Below are positions 6,401 to 64,000 of a stretch of 64,000 bases of DNA, one piece after another. Below the pieces are notes generated by a model. It had not been told where the DNA came from and did no database searches. It worked only from the letters and a program-made list of their open reading frames with translations. The DNA comes from Coffea arabica. Taxonomy: Eukaryota > Streptophyta > Magnoliopsida > Gentianales > Rubiaceae. The stretch's first letter is position 1; each line of letters opens with the position of its first letter. The stretch lies in NCBI RefSeq assembly GCF_036785885.1, contig NC_092329.1, forward strand, positions 7,440,001-7,504,000, in the 5' to 3' direction. Both the position numbers and the translations under genes were made by a program.

Positions 6401-9325
6401 ATAGGCGGCATTGTTTCAGGGGCCATTGCTACTGCAGCTATACTATGTGCTTGTATGCTGTGGCTTATCTTGAAATTCCGCAAGAGGAAACATCATGCAG
6501 TTTCAAAAGGACATAACTGTGAGTTTCCTATCGTTGGAGATTTTGGTGACAATACGAAGATTAAAGTTCATCATTGTTTCTTAGTGGTGGTGTATAAGGC
6601 AACTCCTGATAGCATGCCATTATGCAAGTATACGTTCAGTTGTTGATCGTACAACGAAGAAAAAGGATTGCTTTGAAGCTTGAAATATATCCTCTCCTTG
6701 AATTAGCCTATATTGTGCTAAAGTTAATTTTTAATCAATTGGTTAAAAAAACTGATTGATATGGCCTCCCTATGTTTCTTCCTTTAGTTCGGTATGTCCT
6801 GGAATACTGATTTGCATGCAATAAGGTTTATTTCTGCAATCACAAATCATGAAATTTAAAGGGGCTGTGTGGGTTGTTATACTTGTTAATTGACTGATAG
6901 GGGAAGAGTTTTATATGGTGGTTGAAATCTATCATTTTGTAATATTTCATGTTATACTTGCAGTGTCAAAGATCTCGGTCAAAATCGATGGTGTGAAAAA
7001 ATTTTCTTACAAAGAAATGGCTCTTGCAACCAACAACTTTGATAGCTCTAGCCAAGTTGGACAAGGAGGGTATGGAAAAGTCTTTAAAGGCATTCTAGCT
7101 GATGGAAATATTGTTGCCATTAAGCGTGCTCAAGTGGGTTCAATGCAAGGTGAAAAGGAGTTCCTTACAGAAATAGAACTCCTATCAAGATTACATCATA
7201 GAAACTTGGTTTCTCTGATTGGATACTGCGATGAAGAAGGTGAACAGGTACCCGTAGAATATCACATTCAACATCAGCTAGGCTTTTTCAACTTTTCAGC
7301 ACTGTAGTTCTTTTTTTACTTTTTCCAATTCTTTATGTTTTCTTTTTTTTTTTTTTGTGGGGTCGGGGTGAGTGGGGGAGGAGGAACTAAGGCAATGATG
7401 GTTGCTTGAGGTGGATGTTTGACTTCTTGACGTAACACTTGAGGCTTGGACAGAGGATTTGCATTCCATTGTTGTGAAAATCAAGATTTTAGTACAATTC
7501 TACTAGGAAACCTATCAAAACACCGGGAGGGGGGGGATTGCAGCAAGGAGCAACATCTTGCAATTTAAGCTCCTCAGCTGTACAAAACAGACTATATAGT
7601 TAAAATCACGTGTTCATGGATAATGATTATTTTCCCTTGTTCATGGTGCTTTATGATGCAGATGTTGGTTTACGAATTCTTGTCTGATGGTACCTTGAGG
7701 GATCACCTGTCTGGTACTTTACGTCAACTGCCTTCTCAATTTTCTTCTGACTATTGATTGATTACTTATGCTTTTCTATTTCTTGATTGACATTTTCTTG
7801 CACAAAATTAGTCCTCTGTGACCTAGTATGAACCCTCACTTATATTTACAATGAGGCTGAGCTGGTGCACGTGGAGACACAATGGCACACCGCCAAGTGT
7901 GTGTTTGTGTTCTTCTTGATACAAATCGGAACATTTTGTTTCTTTGTTTTATATTTCTTCCTCTGGACCCGCTTAGGAGTAAGGGGGAGGTGAGTAGACA
8001 AAATTTGGATCCACAGGTCATAGAGTACTGAACTTATAGTTTATCTGAGTAGCAAATTACTTCAGCTGGTCATTCACATGCAATTTTAGGGGTTATTAAT
8101 GTACAGTTGGTGTGTTGCTTGTATATCGCAGGCAAGTCTAAGGAGCCTCTTAGTTTCACTATGAGGTTGAGAATTGCGTTAGGTTCAGCTAAGGGAATCC
8201 TCTACCTACATACAGAAGCTAATCCTCCTATATTTCATCGAGATATCAAGGCAACAAACATACTATTAGACTCTGGCTTTACAGCTAAGGTTGCCGATTT
8301 TGGACTCTCACGGCTTGCTCCAATTCCTGATCTTGAAGGAACTGCTCCTGCTTATGTATCTACTGTTGTTAAGGGGACTCCGGTAAGCATGATCCAGTTA
8401 GCAGACGAGTTTTTTTTTTTTTTTTTTTTTTTTTGTGAACGAGAGCCATTATTAACATCTTCTTTCCCCCTTGGGAAGTCAATATCCAATTTTCTCTGAT
8501 CTGTTTATTCTGTTCAAGTTCTGAATGTTATCATCCACCCTGTTGATGAAATAATATGCAATACATTGTCAATTCACATTCAAAGAGCTACCTGCTCCCT
8601 TTTGTAATCATGCAGTCAAATAAGAATAGGCAAGCATATATACTCCATTATAGATGTGATAACTCGAGGAGAATATCTTTGCAGGGTTACGTTGATCCAG
8701 ACTATTTCCTGACTCGTAAGCTTACTGATAAAAGTGATGTTTATAGCCTGGGTGTGGTATTTCTGGAGCTGTTGACAGGAATGCCACCAATTGTACACGG
8801 CAAAAACATTGTCCGTGAGGTAATTTCTCACACTTTTGTTGTCATAGGGTGAAAGTAACCAATATACTGATCACATATTCACATGCATATTCTAAGCCAC
8901 TTGTTGATCATCCTCTTGAACTTCACCTTGTTGCGGCAGAGATGTCTCTCTTAACTGACTTTAAACAAAATATGAACCAGGTGAAGGATGCCTATAGTTC
9001 GGGTAGGATGATTTCGGTCATTGATAAGCATATAGGATCTCATCTCCCTGACTGTGTAGAGAAGTTCATGACTCTAGCTCTCAAGTGCTGTGAAGAAGAG
9101 ACAGGGGCCCGACCTTCAATGGCAGAAGTGGTGAGAGAGCTTGAAGACATTTGGCTACTAATGCCAGAGCCTGAAGCTAAACTAGCAGAATCCTCTGCCA
9201 CTAGCCCTGGAGGATATGCAATTTTATCTTCATCCGCTGCAACGAGAAATCCTCACACTTCCTCTGATGATTCCCTTGGCAGAGACCCTGGCAGTGAAGT
9301 AATCTCCACCCTCACACCTAGATGA
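476..9325 (+). CDS. LRR receptor-like protein kinase, LRR-VIII-1 type (At1g06840-like), 5' end outside window
   Basis: Plasma-membrane receptor kinase: extracellular LRRs, one membrane helix, cytosolic Ser/Thr kinase; ligand unknown. Exons read: 476-547, 699-770, 954-1097, 1251-1322, 1424-1495, 3304-3378, 3698-3766, 3893-3961, 4107-4178, 4346-4432, 4692-4760, 4914-5413, 6363-6518, 6964-7247, 7662-7713, 8132-8382, 8685-8819, 8981-9325. All have GT/AG edges and matching phases; the 5413/6363 junction is the least certain. LRR exons are 72 nt or small variants, one 24-residue repeat each (e.g. [18 protein letters not shown]). Exon 4914-5413 is the Cys-rich juxtamembrane domain; 6363-6518 holds the helix ([20 protein letters not shown]). 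The kinase has [32 protein letters not shown] and the APE-region GYVDPDYF, so it looks active. Introns 1496-3303 and 5414-6362 are long and hold no other gene I can see. Stop TGA at 9323. The N-terminal signal peptide and first LRRs lie to the left. Confidence 0.93.
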
Positions 9326-9604: not shown

Positions 9605-10157
9605 TCAGAGTTGCATCGGTGACAGTTTTTCTAGTATTTCAAGCTCCAAGGTATCGAATGCTTTGACAATGATAGCAGAAGCCCTGTGTGTATCATTCCA
9701 CTGTGGTAGGTTAAGATGGAACATCATGTCCTCTTGGTCTATAATTCTAGTCAAAAGTAGGGAGAACCGGAGAACCTTCAGGCTTGTACCTTCCAATCCA
9801 GACATCCAAACTGGAAGCTGCAAGTCAAATGGTCGAGGGATAAACTACCACGAGCAAGAATTCTAATCAGTGGATTTTCTGAACTCTCACAAACTATATT
9901 GCAGAAATACTTAAGATACATGTATGATCAGGCAGGATTCACAAAATAACAACACGAAAACTTGAAAGTTGAAACATGATCTAATAAGAATAATACACCT
10001 TTTGAGTGGTTCTCCATGGGTCCAAAGAAGCACATCAGGAAAGCCTAACAACTCTTGAGGAACTTGTAACGTGAAAATCATGCAACGACCAGAGACCATA
10101 CAAGCTATTGGAGAGGACAATGGGAGTTGTAGGGTGTCATTTGAGTCTGATAACTAG
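9605..10157 (-). pseudogene. UGT85-type glycosyltransferase relic
   Basis: The minus strand holds two decayed pieces of a UGT85 gene in correct order. Around 10000-10157 the reading CMVSGRCMIFTLQVPQELL, then FPDVLLWT, parallels [19 protein letters not shown] and IPDVFFWT of the intact genes at 13.7 and 22.3 kb. It runs into a PLK-codon/GT donor at about 10007, the same place as their exon 1 end. At 9605-9850 the reading ASAIIVKAFDTLELEILEKL parallels [20 protein letters not shown] of exon 2. The N-terminal part with the catalytic His and the whole C-terminal half with the PSPG box are missing, and frames are broken near 10130. It is a third, dead member of this cluster, on the same strand. 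It is more diverged than the other two are from each other, so it is not a product of the recent duplication. Confidence 0.8.
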
Positions 10158-10997
10158 GTGTCCCAACGGGGCCAGTGGATGCTTTCCAGTGGACCTGACG
10201 GCTGCCCTCACATCTACGGCAGCATTCTCTTCCCTCCCAGAGGCCATCTGGGGTGGCTGATAAATTAGGATTGTAGCAACCTAGGATGTGAAAGCCCCCT
10301 CTGGTGGAGGTTGTCTTGCAGTTTTCAGCGTGGGTTTTATCATTTATGTGGCCTGGAGACTGAAGGCAGCGGCACTAGGATTGCATCAGGCCTAAGCCTC
10401 TCGTTGTCTTTAGACATTGAACCAAAGATTTCTCTTTGGTCCGGATTTTTGTTGTACTCAATTTCACTTTTCTTCGAACATAAATAATTGGCAATGTTTT
10501 TGGGTAACAGAATTGCATTAAATATATTCACATTAATTAGGTGGTTACTCAACATTAATTAAGCGTTTTCAGTGCAAATCCGGAATAGATGATTATATAA
10601 TGACTAAGTATTGCTGTCGCATGAGAAATATTTAAGCCTTCGCTGGATATCATTGAGTTTACTTTTAGACCTACTCTCAATTTTAGAAGGGCAAATTACA
10701 AATAACATCCCTATGATCTCATTTATTATCACATAATAACCATATAGTTGGCAAATAGTCATATGACCCCTTGTAATTTTATACGAAGAGAGAAGTAGAG
10801 GGATATCACTATACAACCTTCACTAACCGCGATTGTGTACACACACACACCCTTACAATCAGATAAATTGACTATAAGCGCCAAATCGCATTTCTTTTAC
10901 AATCAAATGAATAAATTGTGAGTACCAAACGACGAGGTGTATAACTAAATGATAAGTGTATGTATCAAAATGATAATGATAAGATGCAAATTATCTA
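10158..10997. other. intergenic, no gene seen
   Basis: AT-rich sequence between the UGT relic and the tandem repeat. I found no coding match. Short reading frames here have no recognisable motif. A (CA) run of about 12 bases occurs at about 10837-10849. Confidence 0.5.
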
Positions 10998-11205: not shown

Positions 11206-11916
11206 ATCAAACGGTCAAACTATAAGGAACAAGCATTTTTAGTAAGGTTGTTACAAGATATTCCTCGCATTTTACGTAGAAGTTGGTGTTAATTACAACT
11301 TAATTATGTTGACTTATTTAAATCCGTCCACCAACAACACGCCCAAACCTGCCCATCAATTTTGAATGGGTCAAAATAAGTACTCAATTAACCATTTAAT
11401 TTACATGTAATAGGTTGACTCGACTCACCCATTTATATACATTTAAAAATTATTATACATTCAAACTCAACTTTTAGTGAGTGTTAAGCAAATAAATTTG
11501 AATTTCTTACCAATCTAATAACAATAAAATATCATTATTTCTTCTCAAACAACATGCGAAAAAATAGAAAAAAATATAAAATTTTAAGTGACTCGTAAAT
11601 TAGTAATTAAATATTTAAATGAGTATAAATGAATTGATTCAATTAGACCCATTACTCAATTATGACTCGTTCATACACTCCCGAGTCATCCATTTTGATA
11701 CCTCTAGTTTTATGTTAAACCAGAATTAGAAAGGAATATAAAACATCATTGAGCCAAAACTCTTACTATCTTGCTGGCTGGAATAATGCTGTGCCATGCA
11801 AACGTACCTATCTTAGTACAGCCCGAATAATTGCACTTCCTAAGTAATCCAACCGAAACCACCAGGCCAAGGTGACCACCACCAAAGCATCAAAGCATTA
11901 AAAATTGTCACATTAA

Positions 11917-12721
11917 GGGTCTGTTTGGTTGGAAGTAAAATGTTTTCCTTGGTAAAATATTTTCCGTGGAAGTAATTTTCCATGAAAATCATTTCCCTTT
12001 CATCATTTTCAGGTGTTTGGTTAGTTTATTGAAAATATTTTCTTACTTCATTTTTCTGGTGTTTGTTTAACTTTTGAAATATTTTCACTTTTATCTCTAT
12101 CTTTACTTTCTACACATTATAACTACATACTTCTTCCCATGCAAAATAAGAAAATTTATCTCATTGTTTAACTTTAAAAAATCTTGGAGAAATGTATATA
12201 TGAATAAAAAATATCTCCTTAAGCAATAAACAAATTGCTGGCCATTTAGTGTCAAATATCAATCACATGCAATGCTTATTGTGACATATATCTTGCACTC
12301 TCACTGCTGAAAGTTTCTCTAGAAAAGAATGTCCCTATTATACATAATTAATTACTAGCATAGGATGAGCAGGATGAGGTTTTTTTTTATTTTGAATATA
12401 CTAGGGGGAGGGTTGGGTGGTACGGGGGAGGGAGTGTAAGGAAGAGATCTTGGGTTCGAGTCCTCCTGTTTACACTAAAAAAAAAAAAAAAAAAAAAGAA
12501 CATACTACAAAATGTTTTCAGTAAGTTTGGAACATACTACAGGCGGGATGCATGCATTTCGGAAAACAACTTCAGTAAGTTTGGAAGGGAAGTTGTTTTC
12601 CATAAGATGAGTGAAAATATTTTACATAGGAAAATGTTTTCAGTAACTTTTGTGCAACCAAACACTGGAAATTAGGAAAATATTTTCCTGGAAAACATTT
12701 TCACCCGAAACAAACGGACCC
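11917..12721. mobile_element. Tourist/PIF-Harbinger-like MITE, 805 bp
   Basis: The ends GGGTCTGTTTGGTT and (complement of the right end) GGGTCCGTTTGTTT form terminal inverted repeats. Similarity of the two ends continues inward for about 50 bp through GTAAAATGTTTTCC-like stretches. It is flanked by TAA on both sides (11914-11916 and 12722-12724), the three-base duplication typical of PIF/Harbinger elements. No transposase reading frame, so it is non-autonomous. It sits inside the retroposon 11857-12897 and contains the SINE-like unit 12404-12497. Confidence 0.85.
12404..12497 (+). mobile_element. SINE-like element nested in MITE
   Basis: A 94-bp G-rich unit with a box-B-like GGGTTCGAGTCC at about 12451 and a 21-A tail. 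It is flanked by GAATATACTA (12394-12403) and GAACATACTA (12498-12507), a 10-bp target duplication with one mismatch. Related units occur at 37597, 46057 and about 46890. Confidence 0.75.
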
Positions 12722-13722
12722 TAAGTGGCTTTACTTAAAAAATTCAGACGGGTGCGTAGTGCACCCGTCTGGTCCGATGATGGCTTTGTCACCTTCAAAT
12801 TATTCTTTGATCTCTTAAGATCCCCTCTCCCTTTAGTATAGAATAGAATAGAATAGATTTATCGTTTTCGTTAAAAAAAAAAAAAAAAAAAAAAAAGAGT
12901 AATCAATCCGACACCTCAGTTGGGCCTTGGCCGATTGTATTATCTGTCATCCCATTTAAATTATTTGTCCTTTGCTGGATATTATTGATCCGTTGAAGCC
13001 TACCCTCCATTCTAGAGTTTCCCCATCTTCTCCCTAGCCAATGCAGCCCTTCCAGTCCTCTTGATTTAAGTGGCAATACTGATTCTGGTGATTTGACTAG
13101 CAGATTTTTCTTTATAACTTTTTCTTTCTCAGAAAATTCGCAACCCATTATTTTCACCGGGTTCATCTGCATGTCCAAACATATAATAAAGTAGCACTCT
13201 TTGGATCGAAAATTATTTGGAAATTTTTTAAAAAATAATACTTTAGTACTTTTTTGCGATAATCAGAAAAATAAAAAACCATTGTCAAACACTTGCGTGA
13301 TATAACCAAAAATTGGAGGAAAAAAAATGGCTATCCCAACAAAGGAGAATTCTGAGGCCGGAATTGGATAAATAAATGAAATATTAGGAGACCAATACTC
13401 TGATCTTGTTGGCCAGGAAAAATAATGCGCCATGCTAATGCCTCTTTCTTGATGTTACGTTGAACTAATGCAGGCCTAATTGCACTAATTGAAACGAGAC
13501 CTCAGTTAGTGCGCAAGAATGATTATAGCCAAATCCATAATTATCTGAAATGGATAAAAAGACATCTACTGATCAAGCGAATTTATTGAGGGCTAGAAAC
13601 AATTCTGCTTAATTTGTAGGCAAAAAAAAGATTGTCACAGGCCATAATAAGCTTATATTAAAATGACAAAAATGGCCGTAGAACTGAAAAATGGACCATA
13701 GCATTAAGCCATTAACAGCTGT

Positions 13723-15392
13723 CTAATTTGGAGCAGGACTTGACATCAGCACATCGTGAACCAAACTTTCAAGATTTTTGTAGGATGATCCACTCGGGGC
13801 AGTGATGGCTTCTTCTGCCAATTTCTTCAGTTCTGCTGCCTTCTTCTTCATCTCTTGACCTCTATCTCCAACCATCAACTCATTTACAAGTTTCTCAACT
13901 TCATCACTCTTCACATTGTTATCAATTTCCAGAGCTGTGCCCAGATGATTGCAACAATACCAACAGTTCGTTTGCTGTTCCGCAAAAAAAGGCCAGCAAA
14001 CCATGGGAACACCAGCACATATGCTTTCAAGTGTAGAGTTCCATCCGCAGTGTGTCAAGAACCCTCCAATTGAGGGATGTTTGAGAACATCTACTTGAGG
14101 GCACCAGCTTGCTAATAGACCCCTTTCTTTAGTGTCCAAAACGAATTCTGGAGGCAAAATTGCAGTTTCTCCAATGACTAAATCAGGCCTAATGATCCAG
14201 AGAAATGTCCTTCCACTTTTAGCAAGTCCCCAAGCAAATTCAACCAGTTGCTGGGGGGTCATAACTGTGACACTGCCAAAATTCACATAAACAACTGAGT
14301 TAGGCTCTTTGGAATCCAGCCACTCAGTACACCCTAGTTCTTCTTTCCATAGATTTGATCCCAAAGATTTCAGTTCATTGTCTGGAAGTTGATCCTCTAT
14401 CAGATGAAGAGGACCAAGGGTGTAGACTGCTGGCAGGATGGAAGAAAAAGCATCTAAAACATCTGGCTCCATTGCATCAAAAGTATTCAGAATAAGAGCA
14501 GATGCATCATGAATCTTCTCAGCCTGATTAATTAAAAAATTCAACATAATATCGTTGCGGTCTGTGGTTCTAATGAAACTTGGCAAGTCCTTCAAGCGTA
14601 TTCCTTTCATTCCTGGAATCCAATCGATAACTGTAGTATCTAGATAACCATTTGTTAAATAACTCCAATCTGTAAAATGAAAAAGGAAAAGGAAAAAAAA
14701 AAGTCAGTATCAAATCTTGTAAAACAACTTTAAATAATTTCCCTTATAGATGACACTTTTTAAGTATTCTGTAACACGTCTTGAAGCCATTTAAATTGGT
14801 CCACTTTTCTAACACAATCTGTTATTGATTGAACTAGTATTTCTGAAATTAATCATTAGTTGATTTATACGGTACCTTTGAGTGGTGTGTAGCCCTTTTC
14901 AACTAGATTTCGATAGTTGAGGTAAGCCATTACACCTCCAGCACCATTAGTCCAAAAGAAGACATCAGGGATGCCTAGGTCTCGGGCAACTTCAAGAGTG
15001 AAGCTCATGATCCCATCAGATACGATGCAAGAAACTGGAGGAACACCGGGACTACTATTGAGTCTAGTAACGAGTTGTCTGAAAGGTGCCAAGCAGTTCT
15101 TGCTAGTGGAATCACAAAGGGAGGGGACATCTTGGGTGGCATCTGCATCTGAAAAAGGAAGTCCATCAGGAATGGTTTCAAATTGGAAGGCAGGCAGGCC
15201 GTCAAGTGCGTTTTTCCCCCTTGATTTCAACAATCTTCTCTGATTGAATTCCGAGTGAACAAAGGTAATATGGAAGCCTTTGTGGTGAAGAATCTTGGCC
15301 AATTTGAACATGGGATTTATGCGGCCTTGTGCTGGAAATGGGATAAAGATTGCATGAGGCTTTGGTTTATTTGCAGTTTCCAAAGATCGCAT
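13723..15392 (-). CDS. UGT85A-family UDP-glycosyltransferase, left copy, catalytic His replaced by Arg
   Basis: Family 1 UGT, a cytosolic enzyme moving glucose from UDP-glucose to small acceptors; the acceptor here is unknown. Exon 1 is 15392-14876, exon 2 is 14669-13723, with a 206-bp GT-AG intron at the position usual for UGT85 genes; 487 aa. The ATG at 15392 ([10 protein letters not shown]) is chosen because the family starts this way just before the first strand; the frame stays open 63 bases upstream. The PSPG donor box is residues 361-404 (WCPQ to EQQ, with HCGWNS). The Asp partner is kept (D126 in VSDG). At residue 24 the motif reads QGRINP (codon CGC) where the family and the right copy have QGHINP (CAC). 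That His is the catalytic base in UGT85H2 (His21). Only about 13 residues differ from the right copy. A MITE begins 84 bp upstream of the ATG. The gene is intact in frame but probably weak or dead as a classical glucosyltransferase. Confidence 0.95.
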
Positions 15393-15476
15393 CTTGCTTT
15401 CAAGTTCCAACTTTGAGCTACCCTGATGAGCTGCCTGCAAGAAATAGTAAAGCAAGGCTTGTCTTAGTGCCGCTTA

Positions 15477-16073
15477 GGGCAGCTCCAATGGGGGTGTAAT
15501 GGGGAGCTCCAACCCCATTACACGGGAGCCGTGTCATGGATATTACACGCATCACCTGTGTGATGCGTGGTGATGCGTGTAATCCATTGAATTTTCTTCC
15601 TATGGCAACGGTAAAATTTCAGCGAGGATTTCCAACAGCAAAACTAAGTATGGATTATTATGATATCTTCACATTTGAAGTATCAAATATTTGTTTAATT
15701 TCCTACATAATTATTTTTAAAAAAATAATAATATATTATTTTTGAAACATAGAAAAAGATATATTATTCAAACTTAAAAATTAATAATATCATTTTTAGA
15801 AAATAAAAAAATTCAAAATGTACAAAATTTAACGAAAGTTAGTACTTTATTTTTTAAAAATAACAACATTAGTTTTAAAAATTACTTTATTTATTTATGG
15901 GATATGAGTTATGCATTATTAAAATAAATATTTGATTAATTGTGGACCCATGCTATTACACATTGTGGAGTGTAATCCATTGTGAGTGAAAGTGTAATAA
16001 AAGAGGAGAAAGTGAAATGCTGACGTGGCATGTGAATTACACTCCATAAAGTGTAATAGCATTGTGGATGCTC
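15477..16073. mobile_element. Tourist-like MITE in UGT85A left-copy promoter
   Basis: 597-bp AT-rich insertion. Left end GGGCAGCTCCAATG; complemented right end GAGCATCCACAATG; similarity continues inward through GTGTAAT motifs. It is flanked by TTA on both sides (15474-15476 and 16074-16076). The right copy has the uninterrupted site GCCGCTTACGAG (TTA at 24017-24019), so the insertion followed the duplication. It carries no transposase. It lies 84 bp upstream of the ATG at 15392 and so probably displaces the ancestral promoter. Confidence 0.88.
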
Positions 16074-16630
16074 TTACGAGTTGCATGGCTGTACATAGGT
16101 GGACGCCATAGGCGCAGTTGGGACAGGCGGTCATGCTTTCATTCGATTTTGTTTGTATTTGCTGCATTATTCATTGTACGATCACATCATACTGTTATAA
16201 TTTTAAAATTATTAATGTACATAAATAAAATATTTCACATATATATTTAATATAATAAATATAATATTTTTTAAATATTATTATAATTATGTAGTTATAA
16301 CATACCAAATATTATAGTAATAAATACAATAATTAAACAAAATCGGACATAATACAACCGTACCGGCCCCATGTCCAATCTAACTCATGCTAGGTGCATA
16401 TATCAAAGAAGGACTAATAGAATTAAAAAGATCTTTTACCCAAAAAAAAAAGAGAGTGGTGGTCCTCATCATTAGTTTATCTTCTCGTGTATTGCTTGTC
16501 ATATCAAGACCTTGAAGTCGTCCCTTCATTATTTGTGATCTGAAAGAATCCACTCCTCTACAGCAGATGGAAACACCAGACAGGTGTCACTGCTTTACTA
16601 GTTTGTCGGTACCATAGCTTGCAGATACTT

Positions 16631-16841
16631 TTTTTTTTGTCGAAACGATAGATGTCATGTAACCTAATCTAGCCTAGTCTAAAGGGAAGGGGAGGGGGTT
16701 CGATGTGAGTACAGACTCCATCGATGAAGGTCAATTAAGACCGCCACAAATTGTGGCAAATTTGTGGGAGGCAGGAATTGAACCCCTGACCTCCAGCATC
16801 ACCTTTAATGGTGATGACCACTGGACCAAATGGCCAGTGGC
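16631..16841 (-). mobile_element. SINE-like retroposon with 19-bp target duplication
   Basis: A 211-bp unit that starts with a T run (the poly-A side on the minus strand). It is flanked by CCATAGCTTGCAGATACTT (16612-16630) and CCATAGCTTGCAAATACTT (16842-16860), 18 of 19 bases equal. Inside are tRNA-like phrases such as TTGAACCCCTGACCTCC. It lies in a part of the left copy that the right copy lacks. Confidence 0.8.
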
Positions 16842-18858
16842 CCATAGCTTGCAAATACTTGATGGAGTTGTAATAGTTCTATTATGAATTTAGTCGGCAT
16901 AGACGATGAATCTTGCCTAATTCTGTGTCAAGCCTTCGTATTTATTTCTAATGTTTTAAAGAATATGTTGTCTAAATTCATTATCTGAACTCCATTTTCT
17001 ATTTGATGTTTCTTGTAGAAAAATTAATAATATCATTCCCCTAAATTAAAAATCACAATACCGATTGATTTGCTGATACGAAATATCTCCTCAAAGAACA
17101 TTCTTTGCTTGAATAGTTGTACTCAACTGCTTGAAGATTATTGGTTTTGATATCTTTTTGAAGATTATTGGTTTTGATATCTTTTTTCCCTTGGAGCCAA
17201 GGAAGTTGAATCAAGTTTGAGAAGAAAGTTGTAAAACGGACTTTAAATCCCTTTCAATCCGATACTATATTCTTGTTTTCAGTTGTGGTTGCAGTATGTT
17301 GTTTGTATCATTGGAGAGAAATTTCAGCCAAGTCTTTAAAAGGTGCAAACTTGAGTTATGTGAGATTAAAAGGAGACGTGAGTTTGATCGATATCGTGGC
17401 ATCAGTGCCGTGATGAGGCTGAGATTGGGGGGCTTTAGTAGAGGGGCCGAGGATCTAACGCGGTTTTCTCTACCTTGAATCATGTCAATTCATGTCTGAA
17501 CAATTCTATCCATACCACATGTGTGGCAACGGAGTACACGGATAGTCTAACTTGTTCCGTAGTATGATAGTTATCGGTAAGTCTGATAATCGATTTTCGT
17601 GTGTCATATTGCTGTGTATTCTTGGAGCAAAAGTCTACATAATCTTAAAGAGTTAGTCTAGCAAAAGGCTGGAATACTCCTAAGTGAAATATATATGTGT
17701 GTGTGTGGCAACGGAGAAATCCGAAGGCAATGAACGGTGATAGCCCATTGGACTCTTGCCAATTGCCGACCAGCCGGAAACCACTCTTACACAGATATAG
17801 TTGTAATAACATGGATTGAATAAATTTTAGAGGAGGGTATAAATCGTGGACAATTGAACACACGCTAGCTTAAAATTCAATTTGCTACCAAAGAAACAAA
17901 GAAAAATCCACAGCATGCATCCATATAATTTTCTAGTATACAGCAATTTCATCAGGAATGTGAAAATTAGAAATGAAAGCTTCGATTAATGTTGATGACC
18001 TTGTACTTAAAAAGGGTGACAAGCTTTTGGATTGTTACAATCTCGATTACAAGGTAGTTACAGTCTACATGATGGACAATAAGCTGGTTCATAGTAATTA
18101 ATGTGAAATATGCAGTTTGATCTATCAGCATCAAATGTAATAAATTCCTCGTCTGCATTGAAGCGCTCTAAGGCTCGTTAGTACACGTAGATTACACCTA
18201 ATTAACCTATCGTATGAATTTTCACACTAACAATTATTACTTGTCTTACATTTATATAATTTTTCTAATTAACATTATTATTTTTTTCAAAACATGAACA
18301 CCTGAACTCCATTTTAAAGAGTGTCGATTGGGTACTCGTTAGACAAACCCATCTTACCATTCGTATTATTTTGTAGTTTGGTTGAGCTTTGACCATTATT
18401 ATGGTTGTTGAAACCTGTAACGGTTCCAATATGGTAGTAAAAGTTTGCATACTTAGTACCGTATTAGTAGCTATTAAGTGGAATCACATGCCTGCCAAAT
18501 TTGGAAACTCACTTCAATCTCTAATCCGCCGAAATTTGTTAGGAAGTTGATAGATAGAATGCAGATGCGGCTCCCGAAATTATTGACTTGTAGACTTAAA
18601 TTTCAACTAAGGACAAGAAAGCAGGAAAACAGAGAGATGATGTGTAATAGTGAAATCAGATCCAACAAGAAATAATGTCGGGCGGGTTTGGACTTGAGAT
18701 TTGAAGTTGACGAAGATATTCACAAATTTTTTTTTAAATCAGCTTCAAATAAGATCACAAGTTTGAGTTAGAATTGTTCCAAATTTTTAGGGCAAAAACA
18801 TTCTACAATAATAGTGGTACTTCTATGTTGGCTTTAGACTCATTTTGTTAGCACACTG

Positions 18859-20456
18859 AGGGCGTCCACCTCGGCCCTCTTCGGTTTCGCGACTGGGCAA
18901 GGTGATCTTCATGAGTCCCGTATCACCTCGGCTCATTGCCTCACCTCCCGAGGCCAGCCTTAGTTTTTCTCAGGGTGACTTCATCTCGACTTGGTCTCCT
19001 ATCTGATATCTGACGTACCACTGGAAAAGTTGACTTATGCATGATGGAATGACGTGACAGTGACATGGCCAGTGCTATGTCTCTTCCATCAGGCCTAAAC
19101 CTGACACTGTCAGCCTAAGGCCTATTGGAACTAGAGCCTATCATTTTTTCCACCATATTGTCTCTTATAAATACCTTTCCATCCGTAAGAAAGGTACAGA
19201 CACACTCACTCTCACTCATATAAGTATTAGAGATACTAAGACCCTTGCTTTTTAGTTTTGCACTTGAGTACCCGAACTGACTTGATCGTCAGAAAGGGAC
19301 TGGGGGACAAAGCCCCATGCTCTTTATGCAGATTTGATAAGTGAATCCCTTCGGTTTGGTCCAGTCATCCGGAATTCGCGTCGTCTATGGAAACTCATTA
19401 AGTGTCCCAATATGAAGTCCACGCGCTCCAGAAGTAAGAGAGTTCCCCCCGTTGGGGTCGAGCCAAGCGCTGCGGCCCAACAGGAGGATAGTCAAGAGCA
19501 CCAGCAGCCTCAGCAAACTCTCCAACCCACCAATGAAGAAAATCTTGCTAGGATGGCCGAGTTTGTTGCTGAAAATTCTGGTATGTTTGAAGAACTGAGA
19601 AGATTCTTCAAGAGGCAGAGAAAGGAAAAGATCGAGTCTTCTAAATGTAGACCGGTCAAGTCTCCTGATATTCCCTCAAATGAGGAGTCAGACGATAAGC
19701 CCCCCTTACAAAGTCCTCCTATGCATGCCTCCTCCAGGTCCACATCCAAAATTACCTCCATCTCAAAGGCATTCACATAAGGTCTTTTCGGAAAACATTT
19801 CAGTGAGAAGTCTAGCCAGCCTGAGGGGTTTGCCACCGATTATATGAGAGCACCACCTTTCACCGATGATATCAATGGGGAGGTAGTTCCCTCCAATTTT
19901 AAACTTCCTGTTCTGCAACCCTATGATACGCGAGAGGATCACCTCCATACTTTTATTTCAGCTTTCAGATTATATTGTGTACCCGATCTTGTTATCTGTC
20001 AAAACTTCCTCGTCTTTTTACAAGGAACTGCTCAAAAATGGTTTTGGAGTTTGGAACATATGAGCATCTCTGCCTTGGGTGAGTTCGTAGACAAGTTTAT
20101 CCACCGCTTCGCTTCATCTAGGCCAATGACGAAAATTTCGACCTACCTGATGAACATACAACAAGCTCCGGGAAAGACTCTACGTTTATATGTGTAGAGG
20201 TTCTATGAGGAGAACATCCAAATACCAAACTCAAATAGACAGGTCACCATCACTGCCTTTACAAATGGATTAGTGGTTGGGATGTTTAACATCGAAGTAC
20301 ACAGGGAGTATTCCCGAACACTTCGGGAGTTATGGCAAAAGATAGACAATGACATCTAAAATGAAGATGTTAATTGCATGAAAAGGGAAGCTCAGGCAAC
20401 CCGGACCGGCCAAAATCCTAGTAAAAAAAAGGATCAAAACCGAGGTGAATCCTAGT
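18859..20456 (+). mobile_element. Gypsy-type LTR retrotransposon fragment with broken gag
   Basis: Located exactly between the two duplicated blocks. About 18859-19400 resembles an LTR plus leader: GC-richer, with a TATAAATA-like box near 19168. From 19412 a gag-like frame runs (KSTRSRSKRV... , then FKLPVLQPYDTREDHLHTFI, FLQGTAQKWFWSL and FVDKFIHRFASSR), which fits the retrotransposon gag core. The same frame is interrupted by TAA at 19778, TAG at 20195 and another stop near 20357, so it is dead. Protease, reverse transcriptase, integrase and the 3' LTR are absent; the fragment is cut at the start of the right block. Confidence 0.85.
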
Positions 20457-21194
20457 AAAGAACAAGCATTTTAGTTAAGATTGTTACAAGATATTCCTTG
20501 CGTTTTATGTAGAAGTTGGTATCAATTACAACTTAATGATGTTGACTTACTCAAACCGGTCCACCAATAACACGCCCAAACCTGCCCATTAATTTTGAAT
20601 GGGTCTAAATAAGTACTCAATTAACCATTTAATTTACGTGTAGTAGGTTAACTCGACTCGCCCATTTATACCCATTTAAAAATTATTATACATTTAAACT
20701 CAACTTTTAGTGAGTGTTAAGCAAATAAATTTGAATTTCTTACCAATCTAATAACAACAAAATACCGTTATTTCTACTCAAACAACATGCAAAAAAATAG
20801 GAAAAAATGTAAAATTTTAAGTGACTAGTAAATTAGTAATTAGGCATTTAAATGAGTATAAATGAATTGACGAAATTATACCAATTACTCAATTATGACT
20901 CGTTTATATGCGCCCAAATTACCTATTTTGACACCTCCAATTTTATGTAAAACCAGAATTAGAAAGGAATATAAAACATCATTGAGCCAAAACTCTTACT
21001 ATCTTGTTAGCTGGAACAATGGTGTGCCACGCAAACGTACCTTTCTTAATACAGCCCGAATAATTGCACGTCCTAAGTAATCGAACCGACACCTCAGTTA
21101 AGGCCTTTGCCGATTGTACATCTGTCATCCCATTTAAATTCTTTGTCCTTTGCTGGATATTATTGATCGGTTGAAGTCAACTCTCCATTCTAAA

Positions 21195-21491
21195 CCAATG
21201 TTTTAAAATCGATCGGATCAATCGGTTCGACTGATTCAATTAAAAATTTAAAGAATTAATTAAACCAATTAAAATCGATCAAGAACTGATTGAACCGATA
21301 AAAATTGGAAGGTTCAACCGATTTTTATTAAGTATTTATTTTCTAAAATAAATATTTTAGTTTTATTCAAAATTTTTAATACTAAAATGAATAAAAAATT
21401 ATTAACTTTTTGAACCGGAGTTAAATCGATCAAATCGTGAACCAAAAAGTTTTTCGATTCACTCCCCGATCCAGATTTAAAAACATTATTG
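21195..21491. mobile_element. MITE private to right duplication copy
   Basis: About 297 bp bounded by CAATGTTTTAAAATCGATCG and, on the right, TTTAAAAACATTATTG, which together form an imperfect inverted repeat. The interior is AT-rich with repeated AACCGAT/ATCGGTT motifs. The left copy is continuous at this point (CATTCTAGAGTTTCC, 13009-13023), so it is the empty site. Target duplication resembles TTCTA plus neighbouring bases; the exact length is unclear. Confidence 0.75.
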
Positions 21492-22269
21492 TTCTAGAGT
21501 TTCCCCATCTTCTCCCTAGCCAATGCAGCCGTTCCAGTCCTCTTGATTTTAACTGGCAATATTGATTATGGTGATTTGACTAGCAGATTTTTCTCTTTAA
21601 CTTTTTCTTTCTCGGAAAATTCACAGCCCATTATTTCCACCGGGTCCTTCTGCATTTCCAAACATATAGGAGTAATAAAGTAGCACTTTTTGGATAGAAG
21701 ATTATTTGGAATTTTTTTAAAAATAATAATGTAGTACTTTTTTGGGATAATAAGAATAATAAAAAGCCATTGTCAAACACATGCGTGATATAACAAAATT
21801 TTGGAAAAAAAAAATGGCTATCCCAACAAAGGAGAATTCTTTGGACAAATAAATGAAATATTAGGAGACCAATTCTCTGATCTTGTTGGCCAGGAAAAAT
21901 AATGCGCCATCCTAATGTCTCTTTCTTGATGTTACGTTGAGCTAATGCACGACTAATTACACCAATTGAAACGAGACCTCCGTTAGTGCTCAAGAATGAT
22001 TATGGCCAAATCCATAATTAGCTGAAATGGATAAAAAGACATCTACTGATCAAGAGAATTTATTGAGGGATAGAAACAATTCTGAGCTTAATTTGTAGGC
22101 AAAAAAAAAAAAGATAATGTCACAGGCCATAATAAGCTTATATTAAAATGACAAAATTGCCCCTCCTATCCTATGCCCAAATTACATCAGGACTTGAAAA
22201 GGGCAATTTTAATATTTTGTGCAAAAATGGCCGTAGAACTGAAAAATGGACCATAGCATTAACAGCTGT

Positions 22270-23935
22270 CTAATTTGGAGCAGGACTTGACATCAGCACA
22301 TCGTGAACCAAACTTTCAAGATTTTTGTAGGATGATCCACTCGGGGCAGTGATGGCTTCTTCTGCCAATTTCTTCAGTTCTGCTGCCTTCTTCTTCATCC
22401 CTTGTCCTCTATCTCCAACCATCAACTCATTTACAAGTTTCTCAACTTCATCGCTCTTCACATTGTTATCAATTTCCATAGCTGTGCCCAGATGATTGCA
22501 ACAATACCAACAGTTCGTTTGCTGTTCCGCAAAAAAAGGCCAGCAAACCATGGGAACACCAGCACATATGCTTTCAAGTGTAGAGTTCCATCCGCAGTGT
22601 GTCAAGAACCCTCCAATTGAGGGATGTTTGAGAACATCTACTTGAGGGCACCAGCTTGCTAATAGACCCCTTTCTTTAGTGTCCAAAACGAATTCTGGAG
22701 GCAAAATTGCAGTTTCTCCAATGACTAAATCAGGCCTAATGATCCAGAGAAATGTCCTTCCACTTTTAGCAAGTCCCCAAGCAAATTCAACCAGTTGCTG
22801 GGGGGTCATAACTGTGACACTGCCAAAATTCACATAAACAACTGAGTTAGGCTCTTTGGAATCCAGCCACTCAATACACCCTAGTTCTTCTTTCCATAGA
22901 TTTGATCCCAAAGATTTCAGTTCATTGTCTGGAAGTTGATCCTCTATCAGATGAAGAGGACCAAGGGTGTAGACCGCTGGCAGGATGGAAGAAAATGCAT
23001 CTAAAACATCTGGCTCCATTGCATCAAAAGTATTCAGAATAAGAGCAGATGCATCATGAATCTTCTCAGCTTGATTAATAGCAAAATTCAACATAATATC
23101 GTTGCGGTCTGTGGTTCTAATGAAACTTGGCAAGTCCTTCAAGCGTATTCCTTTCATTCCTGGAATCCAATCGATTACTGTAGTATCTAGATAACCATTT
23201 GTTAAATAACTACAATCTGTAAAATGAAAAAGAAAAAGGAAAAAAAAATCAGTATCAAATCTTGTAAAACAACTTTAAATAATTTCCCTTATAGATGACA
23301 CCTTTTAAGTATTTTGTAACGTCTTGAAGCCATTTAAATTGGTACACTTTTCTAACACATTCTGTTATTGATTGAACTAGTATTTCTGAAATTAATCATT
23401 AGTTGATTTATACGGTACCTTTGAGTGGTGTGTAGCCCTTTTCAACTAGATTTCGATAGTTGAGGTAAGCCATGACACCTCCAGCACCAGTAGTCCAAAA
23501 GAAGACATCAGGGATGCCTAGTTCTCGGGCAACTTCAAGAGTGAAGCTCATGATCCCATCAGATACGATGCAAGAAACTGGAGGGACACCGGGACTACTA
23601 TTGAGCCTAGTAACGAGTTGTCTGAAAGGTGCCAAGCAGTTCTTGCTAGCGGAATCACAAAGGGAGGGGACATCTTGGGTGGCATCTGCATCTGAAAAAG
23701 GAAGTCCATCTGGAATGGTTTCAAATTGGAAGGACGGCAGGCCGTCAAGAGCGTTTTTCCCCCTTGATTTCAACAACCTTCTCTGATTGAATTCCGAGTG
23801 AACAAAGGTGATATGGAAGCCTTTGTGGTGAAGAATCTTGGCCAATTTGAACATGGGATTTATGTGGCCTTGTGCTGGAAATGGGATAAAGATTGCATGA
23901 GGCTTTGGTTTAGTTGCAGTTTCCGTAGATCCCAT
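22270..23935 (-). CDS. UGT85A-family UDP-glycosyltransferase, right copy, canonical active site
   Basis: Cytosolic family 1 glycosyltransferase of the UGT85A type. Members glucosylate alcohols, cyanohydrins, cytokinins or iridoid aglycones such as 7-deoxyloganetin; the sequence alone does not give the acceptor. Exon 1 is 23935-23419, exon 2 is 23216-22270, phase-1 intron of 202 bp, 487 aa, normal for the family. It starts [12 protein letters not shown]. The catalytic pair is complete: H24 in AQGHINP and D126 in VSDG. The PSPG box is residues 361-404 (WCPQ to EQQ) with the HCGWNS core. Compared with the left copy it has Cys at residue 174 (Trp there), Ile in GCIEW and Met in TAMEID. It keeps the uninterrupted upstream site at 24017, so it probably retains the ancestral promoter and is the functional member of the pair. 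Confidence 0.96.
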
Positions 23936-25703
23936 CTTGCTTTCAAGTTCCAACTTTGAGCTACCCCGATGAGCTGAGTGCAAGAAATAGTAAAGCAAGG
24001 TTTGTCTTAGTGCCGCTTACGAGTTGCATGGGGACGCCATAGGCGCTGTTGGGACAGGCGGTAATGTACATAAATAAAATATTTCATATATATTTAATAT
24101 AACAAATATAATATTTTTTAAATATTATTATAATTATATAATTATAACATACCAAATATTATAGTAATAAATACAATAATTAAACAAAAACGGACATAAT
24201 AGAACCGTACTGGCCCCATGTCACTCATGCTAGATGCATACATCAAAGGAGGACTAATAGAATTAAAAAGATCTTTACCAAAAAAGAAGAAAAAAAAAAA
24301 AAAGAGTACATAATGTAGACTGTGTGCACGGTATCCCAACCTTTTAACTGGACTAATTTTTTTAAGATCGTGTAAAACCTTATTCCAAGAATACATAGTA
24401 AAATAACACACAAAAATTGATTACGGAATTTGCTAATAATAATCAGACTACGGACCGTGGGACTGCCCGCGAGGGCGAGTGGTGGTCCTCATCATTAGTT
24501 ATCTTCTCGTGTTTTGCTTGTCATATCAAGGCCTTGAAGTCGTCCCTTCATTATTTGTGATCTGAAAGAATCCACTAATAATTGGAGAGAAATTTCATCC
24601 AAGTCTTTAAAAGGTGCAAACTTGAGTTATGTGAGATTAAAAGGAGACGTGAGTTTGATCGATATCGTGGCATCAGTGCCGTGATGAGGCTGGGATTGGG
24701 GGCCTTTAGTAGAGGGGCCGATGATCTAACGCGGTTTTCTCTACCTTGAATCATGTCAATTCATGTCTGAACAATTCTATCCATACCACATATGTGGCAA
24801 CGGAGTCCACAGATAGTCTAACTTGTTCCGTAGTCTGATAGTTAACTATCAGTAAATTCGATGATCGATTTTCGTGTGTTATATTACTGTGTATTTTTGG
24901 AGCAAAACTCTACACAATCTTAAAGAGTTAGTCTAGCAAAAAGCTGGAATACTCCTAAGTGAAATATATGTGTCTGTGTGTGTGGCAATGGAGAAATCGG
25001 AAGGCAATGAACGGTGATAGCCCATTGGACTCTTGCCAATTGCCGACCAGTCGGAAACCACTCTTACACAGATATAGTTGTAACAACATGGATTGAATAA
25101 ATTTTAGAGGAGGGTATAAATCGTGGACAATTGAACACACTCTAGCTTAAAATTCAACTTGGGTACTCGTTAGACAAACCCATCTTACCATTCGTATTAT
25201 TTTGTAGTTTGGTTGAGCTTTGACCATTATTATGGTTGTTGAAACCTGTAACGGTTCCAATATGGTAGTAAAAGTTTGCATACTTAGTACCGTATTAGTA
25301 GCTATTAAGTGGAATCACATGCCTGCCAAATTTGGAAACTCACTTCAATCTCTAATCCGCCGAAATTTGTTAGGAAGTTGATAGATAGAATGCAGATGCG
25401 GCTCCCGAAATTATTGACGTTGTAGACTTAAATTTCAACTAAGGACAAGAAAGCAGGAAAACAGAGAGATGATGTGTAATAATGAAATCAGATCCAACAA
25501 GAAATAATATTGTCGGCCGGGTTTGGACTTGAGAATTGAAGTTGGCAAAGATATTCACAAATTTTTTTTTTTTTAAAGAAAACCAGCTTCAAATAAGATC
25601 ACAAGTTTGAGTTAGCAATGTTCCAAATTTTTAGGGCAAAAACATTCTACAATAATAGTAGTAGTACTTCTATGTTGGCTTTTGACTCACTTTGTCAGCA
25701 CAC

Positions 25704-27130
25704 TTTCTCAATCAATTCCCAAATCGAAAAGAGAAGACAATTTTTTTCCCCTGTAACCTACAACATCATCTTAAACTACAACATCTCAGATATTATCCCC
25801 TTTTATACTAATAGCTTTGATATTCATCTCGGCAGGTTACAGGAACAATTCCATCTGGTGGACGGCCTCTAGATGCATTAAAATGTCCGCAATTATTAGC
25901 AGCTATTCTTAAGCTTTCTTTGGCTGAAATATTAGCTTGTGTTTTTATGCACTTGTAAACCCCCCCCCCCCCCCCCCCTCCCTCTTATTTATTTTTTTGT
26001 CAAAGTTATGCACTTGTACTTGATTTGCTTGACCATGGCTGGTAGATGTTGGACCTCCGTTTCATGAAGGCAAGGAAGAATTGATGTTTGCTGATATTTC
26101 AATACAATAAGTTTTAGGATTAATCTTATAGACATCGTCGTGTATACACTATCACGATTAAATAAATGACACGTGTGTAAAATTTGAATTTAAAATTTAA
26201 AACTTTTCCATGTGTCATCCATCTAACCGTGATAATGTATTATACACTGATGATGTGTAAAATTTACTCTAAATTTTATTACGAAGGGTACATTATTATT
26301 ATTTACCATCCTATTTTGTAACACTGCATCCTTGCTTTTCAATACAATAAGGTATGGTTTTCTATAAAGTAAAAATTAGATAAAAAGCACCTCCAATTAT
26401 GTTGTTAATGGAAATATCAACTTTGCCCTCGCTTTAAGTATTATTAAACAGAACGAAGGCCGAATCAATAACACAAAAACATAATATGCTTTTACGTACT
26501 TAAATGCAAAATCGCAAGGGATGTGGATATTATAGTATCAAAATAGAGCATATTTCATGCTTCGCGCGGGTTTTTAGAGTGCATTTTGCGTGAATTTATG
26601 TAACTGGAGGTGTTTACTACTCACTTTCCACTTTGCAGAAAATTGCAAGTGGTTAAGTAAAAAAAAAAACTAAATGAAAGCTATTCCTATATTTGTATAT
26701 TGTCTCCCTCAAATTTAATGGATCATATTTCCAGAGGTTGTCAAGATGCGTAAAAAGCTAGCATACCCAGTTATATATGAAAGACAATTTGTACGTTTTA
26801 GTATGCAATTAAGAAAAACTGTAGAAAATGATTTGAAACAAATAAAAATCGGTCAACAGCAAGTTTCTTTGCATAATTATTTGCTGAATCTATCTGCATC
26901 TTAATAAGGAGTTTGTTGTGGAAATTCAAATTTTCCCACATAGAGAATGCCAATTGATGTAGTTTTATACGATCTTGAAGTATAAGTACAGTCATTTTTG
27001 TTGATTTCTTTTCGAACCAAAAAGATTAATTAATACGCATTAAAGTGAGAAGGATGGATTTTTTTTCGTATTTAATAGTTGTTTACCATCTCAAAGTTAC
27101 TATATATAAGCTTCCATGTAACTCAGATAG
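25704..27130. other. intergenic, no gene; C tract and MITE
   Basis: No coding region recognised. Contains a 19-C run (25960-25978) between two copies of TTATGCACTTGTA-like sequence (about 25945 and 26004), and the MITE at 26118-26270. Confidence 0.5.
26118..26270. mobile_element. short MITE, family with TGTATACACTATCAC ends
   Basis: About 150 bp. The left end (TAATCTTATAGACATCGTCG, then TGTATACACTATCACG) matches the complement of the right end (ATCATCAGTGTATAATACAT, then TATCACG). A relative with the same interior (AAAATTTGAATTTRAAAT, ATGTGTCA) lies at 45478-45635. Confidence 0.65.
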
Positions 27131-28914: not shown

Positions 28915-29901
28915 CTAAACAAAAAGGGAACGTGTCCTTGTACTTTCATGCAAATCAACTGCATCAATTGATGGAGGAGGAGGAGGAGAAGGGCCATGAC
29001 CAGAACCAAAGGAAGCAATATGATCTTTCAAAGACCTTTTATGCTTAAAGTCGCAACCGCACATGCAATGCCAACGTTTCCCACAATTCTTCTCATGGGT
29101 TCGCCAGTCACCTTTCACGGCCAAGCACTTGCCGCACTTTCGACAAGAAAATCGTTTGGTCCCATGTTTTCTCTTGTAATGAGTTTGCAACGTACGAAAA
29201 TCCTTCAATGGTCTTGCTCTCGGATGATTTATGTTGTTCTTGCACCCTTCTTCACAGCAATAACAAGGAATTAATAACATGGCTTTTGGTCGTGTTCCCT
29301 TCAACGATTCTGGCCCCTTCCTATATTGTGATCCGTGACCCCACATATGCATCTGCTAAACAATCATCCTAGGATTAATATTGTCACCAAACACGCACCC
29401 AAAAAAAAAAAAAAAGTAGTAGAAAATTGATTCATATCCATGAGGAATCAAGGATGTAATAGGGGATATATACATATGAATATATTTATTTACCTGGAGA
29501 TTGTTGTAGCGATTGAAAGTTTTGCTGCAAATATGGCAAGAAAAATGGGTGAAGCCTACGAGAATTTGTGCTCGAGTTGGTATCCAATATGGGGCGGGTG
29601 AAAAACCAGTTGCCAAATTTTCCACTCCTTTCTCATAATCATTTAAACTCAAGGAGGCAACCCTGGTGCAAGTACTAGGAGGACCAATGTGCAAGGATAT
29701 AGTAACATCCTCTTTTTCATCTCCAAATGAACTAGGGTTCTTTTCAAGGTCCGATGATTTCTGGGATTCTTGAGAACTCTGGGATTTGCGTTCTGGGAAA
29801 AAATTGAAGTGCTGGATGATTTTGTGATCGGCTGCACTAGAAGAAGAGGCGAAGAGAGAAAGACTAGAGGTAAATGACATGTTTGAATTTGAGTTCTCCA
29901 T
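28915..29901 (-). CDS. TT1: WIP-type C2H2 zinc-finger transcription factor, TRANSPARENT TESTA 1-like
   Basis: Nuclear DNA-binding protein of the plant WIP family. Arabidopsis TT1 (WIP1) is needed for proanthocyanidin deposition in the seed coat. Exon 1 is 29901-29494, exon 2 is 29352-28915, a phase-0 intron of 141 bp placed inside the first finger as in WIP genes; 281 aa (TT1 is about 300). The N-terminus is Ser-rich and variable, with the conserved DVTISLHIG patch. The WIP motif is at residues 106-108 ([12 protein letters not shown]). Finger 1 uses C122, C125, H138 and H142 ([17 protein letters not shown], then MHMWGH). The further fingers of the WIP domain follow ([35 protein letters not shown]). 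The C-terminus FGSGHGP and [10 protein letters not shown] are closer to TT1 than to WIP2/4/5. One difference from the usual CGSDFKHKR is Cys for Ser. The ATG at 29901 is the first in frame. Confidence 0.93.
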
Positions 29902-62177: not shown

Positions 62178-62731
62178 GTACTCTCTAAAGATTCTTACTT
62201 TCTGCAAACTTAGCTCGAGTAGAATTCGTTCTGTACTGGTATTTGTCTTGTTCGTTGAAAAGATGGCGACTTCCATGGATGCAAATTAATGGGTTTTCCT
62301 TCAATTTGATTTTCTGAAGTTGCTTTAATTGGTTTTTGAGTAACTAAGTGAGCTGAAGTTCACCATAATTGAACCACCTTTATTGTTCTTACTTGTTTGG
62401 TAAGGTAAGATCTCATTGATACTGGTGTACTTGGGATTTGTTATCACCCCCTTAATAATCTCGTTTTAAGGTTTTATTAGTTATGCAACCAATATTTCTA
62501 CTAGACGTTTTACTTAGTTACTATCGTTACAAAAAATAAAGGTTGAATTTTTTGGCATATTTCTTCTCGGGTTAGTTAGTGGATCTAATTTGAAAATAGG
62601 GGATTAGATCTTGTTTAGGCTTCCCACTTGGCCGTTTTATTGTTTCCTGATATAATAAGTGCTCTATTAGTAATTTTTATCAAAAGGCATTTTAATGTAT
62701 GACTTGTTTACAGGGGATTTCAGGTGGGACA

Positions 62732-63694
62732 ATGTCAAGGCCTCTCCATCGAGGTGTATCAGGTGGGGGGCGGTTTCCACCGAATAGCCATGATATCTGG
62801 GATGATGATTCTCAGATGAAAGATAAATTAGAGAAGGAAGATGTTGATAGAAAGAGTCCAAATGCTGATCAGACTTATTTATCCATTAGACAGCCCTTTC
62901 GTTTTCTTCTCACGGACAATTCATCTTCTAAGCATGGTTTACTGGAGAATGGATTTGTTTCAGACCCATTTAGTCCTGGAGTACTAAGAAATAGACATAA
63001 GCGCGCTTTGCTTTTGCTGAGGTTAAGCTTAGTTGTAATTGTAATTCTTGCTCTTACTGGATCCTTTTGGTGGACAATCTCAATAACAACTTCATCCAGA
63101 GGTCAAGTATATCGAGGCTACAGGAGCCTGCAGCAGCAATTAGTTTCTGACTTGGTTGATGTTGGAAAGCTTTCTCTTGGTTCTACAAAGTTAAAAGATT
63201 TGGAATATTGTTCTCCAGAGTCTGAGAATTATGTTCCTTGCTTCAATGTTTCAGAAAATCTTGCTTTGGGGATTTCCACTGGCGATGAATATGACCGCCA
63301 CTGTGGGCCAAGTTCCAGACAAAGTTGTTTGGTTCTTCCACCTGTCAATTACAAGATTCCGCTGCGGTGGCCTTGGGGAAGAGATCTTATCTGGGTGGCA
63401 AATATAAATATTACCGCACAGGAGGTTCGATCCTCTGGAAGTTTGACCAAAAGGTGGGTTAAAATGAAATGCTGGTCTCTTTTTTTGAGAGAAAAGATCA
63501 TTTGTTTATGTTGGAGGCCTGAATTTTATTTAGTTATTCTAACAGTGTCAAACCACTTCAGGATGATGATGTATGATGAAGATCAAATATCCTTTCGTTC
63601 GGCATCTCCTGGGTATGATGACATGGAAGATTATGCTCACCAAATTGCTGAAATGGTTGGGCTAAGAAATGAATCCAACTTCATACAATCTGGA
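62732..63694 (+). CDS. QUA2: QUASIMODO2 (QUA2/TSD2)-like putative methyltransferase, N-terminal part
   Basis: Golgi type II membrane protein of the plant DUF248/PMT family. Arabidopsis QUA2 (At1g78240) is needed for homogalacturonan content and cell adhesion and is thought to methylate pectin with S-adenosylmethionine. Coding exon 1 is 62732-63453, exon 2 is 63562-63694; the gene continues past 64000, with intron from 63695. The start MSRPLHRGVSGG resembles the QUA2 N-terminus. A single helix covers about residues 92-116 (LRLSLVVIVILALTGSFWW) after a short cytosolic tail, and TISITTSSRG follows as in QUA2. The lumenal part has LEYCSPESENYVPCFNVSEN, ENLALG and LRWPWGRDLIWVANINITAQ. Exon 2 reads MMMYDEDQISFRSASPGYDD and EDYAHQIAEM. 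The SAM-binding motif lies beyond the window. It carries no break within the visible part. Confidence 0.94.
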
Positions 63695-64000
63695 GTAAGT
63701 GATTGTGGCTTAATGTGGTCTTAATCTTAATTACCTTGCTATAGGTTTCGTCACCTTTGGCTAGATGAAAATTTAGTTTTATTTATCATTCTACCTCTTG
63801 AAAGTTCCATCTATTATGATCTTACTACTGGAGCATTGCATTGGCTGTTTTGCTTGGATTGCTTTTATGTAGCTAATATTTATCCTTACCTGGAATCTAC
63901 CAGTTGATGGCACATAATTCTCAATGAGCTCAAATTTCCAAATGGCTTTTTAGTGAGACCATTATATGTGTTTCCATAACTTGCAAAAGACCTGTCTATT

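Follow-up and report, generated by a model that had tools for sequence, protein, structure and literature searches.

Arginine in place of the catalytic histidine in one of two tandem UGT85 genes of Coffea arabica

Does the natural loss of the catalytic histidine from a plant UGT open nitrogen or sulphur chemistry, or does it simply kill the enzyme? The window analysed here, a stretch of 64,000 nucleotides of the Coffea arabica genome (contig NC_092329.1, positions 7,440,001 to 7,504,000), holds a pair of tandem UGT85 genes that addresses this question. Their products differ at 13 residues, the catalytic base being the only difference among the named active-site residues, and the pair therefore offers a natural test of the need for His. 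If decay alone is at work, the locus documents a commonplace first stage in losing a redundant duplicate. Unless the left protein proves to be both expressed and active, the finding is of moderate to low interest. The genes and the duplicated units that contain them are as follows.

13723 to 15392, minus strand: left UGT85 gene, two exons, 487 amino acids, Arg24 (Pfam UDPGT, 6.6e-30)
15392 to 14876 and 14669 to 13723, minus strand: exons 1 and 2 of the left gene
14670 to 14875, minus strand: intron of the left gene, 206 bp, GT-AG
22270 to 23935, minus strand: right UGT85 gene, two exons, 487 amino acids, His24 (Pfam UDPGT, 1.9e-29)
23935 to 23419 and 23216 to 22270, minus strand: exons 1 and 2 of the right gene
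11223 to 18857, no strand assigned: left duplicated unit, gene and flanks, broken up by left-only insertions
20456 to 25704, no strand assigned: right duplicated unit

Each coding sequence measures 1464 nt including the stop (487 codons), and the intron of the right gene is 202 bp long with GT-AG borders. The two units are separated by a gap of about 1.6 kb. This intervening stretch (18858-20455) contains a broken reading frame with stops that we take to be gag-like and probably a retroelement remnant; a frame inside it (19334-19777) returned no Pfam match.

Both products match Pfam PF00201 (UDPGT), and 487 residues is the length of a full-length GT-B protein. Among 97 structure matches the top two were 2PQ6, which we take to be MtUGT85H2, and 7ZER. 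The former is the best of the 97, with 275 of 471 aligned residues identical in the right copy and 272 of 471 in the left, and residues 10-482 of the right copy match its residues 7-480 of 482. Of the 22 positions named for SbUGT85B1 (7ZER/7ZF0; PMC9545476), 19 are the same in the right copy and 18 in the left: at V94, V132 and V337 the two coffee proteins carry Cys, Ile and Ile instead, and the left has a further replacement, Arg, at H23. These similarities fit an assignment of both copies to family 85, as judged from sequence, the narrower label UGT85A given in an earlier sequence-only reading being a proposal. The left copy belongs to UGT85 by descent, but with its dyad incomplete a claim to be an active O-glucosyltransferase does not hold for it. 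Both copies also have Trp409 where 2PQ6 and 7ZER have Arg, and Leu415 with Ala418 where four of the five displayed structure rows have Trp and Gly, the fifth being shifted by an insertion. A predicted structure of the left copy, made from an alignment of two sequences, had a mean pLDDT of 32.8 and a pTM of 0.19, values too low to inform on the fold. As expected for a plant gene, relatives were found neither in public genome contigs (seven pattern matches, none of them a relative) nor in public viral contigs (no match).

The residues on which the question turns are two codons at position 24 and one at position 126.

15321 to 15323, minus strand: codon 24 of the left gene, CGC = Arg, the catalytic His position by alignment with 2PQ6 and 7ZER
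23864 to 23866, minus strand: codon 24 of the right gene, CAC = His
15015 to 15017, minus strand: codon 126 of the left gene, GAT, the partner Asp of the dyad, intact

The alignment, free of gaps around the site, sets position 24 against His21 of 2PQ6 and His23 of SbUGT85B1 (7ZER), and position 126 against Asp125 of 2PQ6, so that the left copy has an Arg24-Asp126 pair where the right copy has the His24-Asp126 dyad. The SbUGT85B1 study describes this His as the base, at a distance of 2.7 A from the acceptor (PMC9545476). The seven distinct structure sequences displayed at this position, of 97 matched, all have His and none has Arg. A sequence-only reading of the locus had placed CGC against CAC at the catalytic His, with the partner Asp and PSPG box intact in a full-length frame changed at about 13 of 487 residues, and this account holds up: coordinates and codons were reproduced from the window sequence, the alignments and the published base assignment agree on the catalytic position, D126 and all eight UDP positions listed for SbUGT85B1 in the PSPG box are the same in both copies, and the proteins show 13 differences with no indels. 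Of the 22 positions that the SbUGT85B1 study assigns to dyad, acceptor or UDP, 21 are identical between the copies, the sole difference being position 24. Since about 0.6 chance changes are expected among 22 contact positions (13 x 22/487), one such change is not evidence of selection by itself, and the identity of the residue is the notable part; selection for the Arg24 change itself is thus not needed as an explanation. The change is a single A-to-G transition. A deamination artefact (CpG decay) was considered as its source and rejected, as CAC to CGC gains a CpG.

Polarity of the change could be established from the two structures and from a decayed third copy nearby.

9620 to 10420, minus strand: third UGT copy, now a badly decayed relic interrupted by stops and frameshifts, resembling both genes (tblastn 26.5% over 283 aa, E 4e-12)

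The relic contains, at 10342-10353, an exact match to the 12 bases GGCCACATAAAT around the His codon, although its frame is broken there. Its alignment was too gapped for it to polarise synonymous changes, and it was rejected for that purpose, the 12-base match being used alone. Given His in the right copy, in both UGT85 structures and in the relic codon, Arg24 is derived and arose on the left branch once the duplication had taken place, as had been proposed from the sequence. At two of the 13 differing sites (24 and 138) the structures 2PQ6 and 7ZER share a residue that one of the copies also has, and the left copy is derived at both; at site 138 the structures have Glu and the left copy Asp. 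Site 287 is Leu in both structures, equal to neither copy; at site 419 only 2PQ6 agrees with a copy (the right) and at site 445 only 7ZER does (the left). At the other eight sites the structures match neither copy or are unaligned.

The two coding sequences align without gaps in both exons and differ at 30 bases, comprising 13 residue changes and 14 synonymous codons. By NG86, dN is 0.0136 and dS 0.047, with similar values from two other methods, and the resulting pairwise dN/dS of about 0.28 joins both branches; nonsynonymous changes per site are fewer than synonymous ones (Fisher P 0.003). No indel was found in 1464 coding bases, where about 10 were expected, against 22 in 3170 aligned noncoding bases, a rate taken from blastn-aligned segments with large insertions left out. 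The deficit of coding indels has a Poisson P of 4e-5 when both branches are counted and of 0.006 when a single branch is. The left protein was thus retained during the greater part of the period that followed the duplication, from which it follows that Arg24 is either recent or tolerated. On these alignments the left gene looks to have been maintained through most of its existence as a duplicate, with recent damage.

Noncoding divergence between the copies ranges from 0 to 10% by piece, being 2.5% in the intron, 2 to 5% on the 5-prime side and, further out on the 3-prime side, 7 to 10% (over 1404 aligned bases), a 48-bp piece beside the stop codon with no differences aside. Large insertions of 597, 752 and 443 bp in the left unit and of 191 bp in the right further separate the two. 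Within the coding sequence the longest identical run is 394 bp (lying between codons 287 and 419; 13933-14326 and 22480-22873), with a probability of 0.0025 when all differences are considered and of 0.028 for synonymous differences alone. This run is suggestive of recent gene conversion in exon 2, which would have left codon 24 untouched. Synonymous changes amount to 8 in 118.7 sites in exon 1 and 6 in 205.3 sites in exon 2, not clearly different (Fisher P 0.15). Codon 218 (14533-14535; 23080-23082) reads TTA in the left gene and GCT in the right (Leu/Ala), a change of all three bases that looks like one multi-base event; it is three residues away from Gln221, the aligned counterpart of Gln225, which contacts the acceptor in SbUGT85B1.

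Outside the frame, the left gene differs from the right close to its start codon.

15477 to 16073, no strand assigned: left-only 597-bp insertion with a TTA target-site duplication and imperfect inverted ends

This element, presumably Tourist/PIF-Harbinger-like, reaches on the upstream side to within 84 bp of the left ATG, and the empty site in the right copy is a single TTA at 24017-24019; no second full copy of it was found within the window. The right copy has TATA-like sites, at the level of pattern, at -157 and -205, for which no counterpart was matched within 838 bp in the left copy, and the aligned AT-rich stretch of the left copy starts 821 bp upstream. The start context reads ATGC in the left gene versus ATGG in the right.

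Loss of the catalytic His is not new among UGTs, both natural and engineered examples being known. Human UGT1A4 and UGT2B10, which have Pro and Leu at the catalytic His site and carry out N-glucuronidation, likewise combine natural loss of His with an otherwise intact enzyme, but are animal proteins. The Arabidopsis enzymes UGT76C1-5 are, like the left copy, natural plant UGTs without the catalytic His in which the Asp is kept; there, Cys replaces His across the whole subgroup (PMC12246196), whereas here Arg occurs in one young duplicate. UGT76C2 and UGT76C3, the members tested, favour N-glucosylation yet give weak O-glucoside signals, and their Cys- or Asp-to-Ala mutants make less N-product and more O-product than wild type, so the rule linking loss of His to N-transfer is not a simple one (PMC12246196). 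In PtUGT1, the His-Asp dyad is reported to be required for O-transfer but dispensable for N- and S-transfer: the His26Ala mutant is N-only, His26Gln loses O-transfer and keeps N- and S-transfer, and His26Phe has no amine activity, its ring sitting between donor and acceptor (PMC8819650). These mutants alter the same catalytic position with the Asp intact, as in the left copy, but are laboratory constructs, and Arg is not among the replacements named in the available text (Ala, Gln, Glu, Asp and Phe). UGT72B1 H19Q retains 1/300 of kcat on a phenol and half of the N-activity (as cited in PMC8558338), and a soybean UGT shares the loss of the catalytic His with the left copy, an alternative mechanism having been proposed for it (PMC4188811). 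Arginine at this site is not mentioned in the available text of the Arabidopsis study (PMC12246196), and no plant UGT with Arg at the catalytic His appeared among the matches listed from the open-access literature, searches with the motif QGRINP included.

From the mechanistic data on PtUGT1, UGT72B1 and the UGT76C enzymes, loss of most O-glucosylation is to be expected, and the left copy has probably lost normal O-linked glucosyl transfer. On balance we favour the reading that it is a young duplicate that has lost most of its O-glucosylation and is heading for a pseudogene. A UGT85 gene would have been duplicated in tandem, after which His24 became Arg in the left copy. Arginine is bulkier than His, carries a positive charge and serves poorly as a general base; it adjoins the Asp that normally activates His, and Arg24 may pair with Asp126, either blocking the base position or merely emptying it. 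The left enzyme would still fold and bind UDP-glucose but would have little or no ability left to glucosylate hydroxyl acceptors, while the right copy, with the ancestral residue, presumably keeps the ancestral function too. Further hits to the left copy would be the insertion 84 bp from its ATG and the C in place of G after that ATG, from which we infer reduced expression and the direction of its fate, and its frame would be intact because the loss is recent. Of the two outcomes first proposed, the start of decay is the better supported, given the left-only insertion and the changed start context, neither of which the sequence-only reading had mentioned. Counting against decay are the intact frame (no stop, frameshift or loss of GT-AG was found in the left copy), the absence of coding indels, the low pairwise dN/dS and the weak O-glucoside signals of UGT76C2 and UGT76C3 without His (PMC12246196).

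A change of chemistry, one form of the other outcome, in which the left copy binds UDP-glucose and transfers glucose to N or S acceptors that need no base, the His-to-Arg change having narrowed it to these, is unlikely in our estimate, despite being chemically sound and having close precedents: the Cys-bearing UGT76C enzymes with their preference for N-glucosylation (PMC12246196), the PtUGT1 Ala and Gln mutants (PMC8819650) and the N-activity left to UGT72B1 H19Q (PMC8558338) all point this way, as do the near-complete identity of the contact positions and the intact frame. Arg, however, is similarly large to the Phe that abolishes amine activity in PtUGT1 (PMC8819650), no compensating change accompanies it at the named contact positions, an insertion lies near the left ATG, and the natural replacement in Arabidopsis is Cys (PMC12246196), with Arg in none of the structure rows viewed. 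Nothing in the sequence favours the amine or thiol acceptors of the earlier proposal. A specific form of it, for which we would give quite low odds, is that Arg and Asp form a salt bridge, that the acceptor pocket is thereby left with no base, and that a single change has made an N- or S-glucosyltransferase out of an O-glucosyltransferase, its ancestral counterpart still lying alongside as a control. It is extremely unlikely that the left copy retains useful O-glucosylation on an acceptor acidic enough to react without a base, as the weak O-signals of UGT76C2 and UGT76C3 and the raised O-product of their Ala mutants might suggest (PMC12246196), given that PtUGT1 needs its dyad (PMC8819650) and that so little phenol activity remains in UGT72B1 H19Q (PMC8558338).

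Two further accounts were weighed. Arg24 could be a wrong base or a rare allele, through a mistake in sequencing or assembly or because a heterozygous assembly falsely shows a tandem duplication; in favour of this, the difference is one transition in one copy. The 3-prime divergence and the large insertions on both sides argue against this, the copies would differ by more than ordinary heterozygosity, and the left gene has no frame error elsewhere; we consider this improbable. Alternatively, the left protein might be kept for a role other than transfer, binding or sequestering acceptor or UDP-glucose or partnering enzymes, with which the intact frame and donor site agree. Selection before Arg arose explains the intact frame equally well, and no positive evidence speaks for such a role, which we regard as very unlikely. 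Decay of a young duplicate remains the reading we prefer over both.

In support of decay, the neighbourhood has some history of such losses, the relic at 9620-10420 showing by its decay that a UGT copy had already been lost here earlier. It is adjoined by reading frames with protein-kinase matches (6915-7304 and 8107-8496). On the other side of the tandem pair lie part of a C2H2 zinc-finger gene with Pfam STOP2-like and BIRD-IDD fingers (28918-29352, minus strand) and the start of a gene matching Pfam Methyltransf_29 (62699-63721, plus strand).
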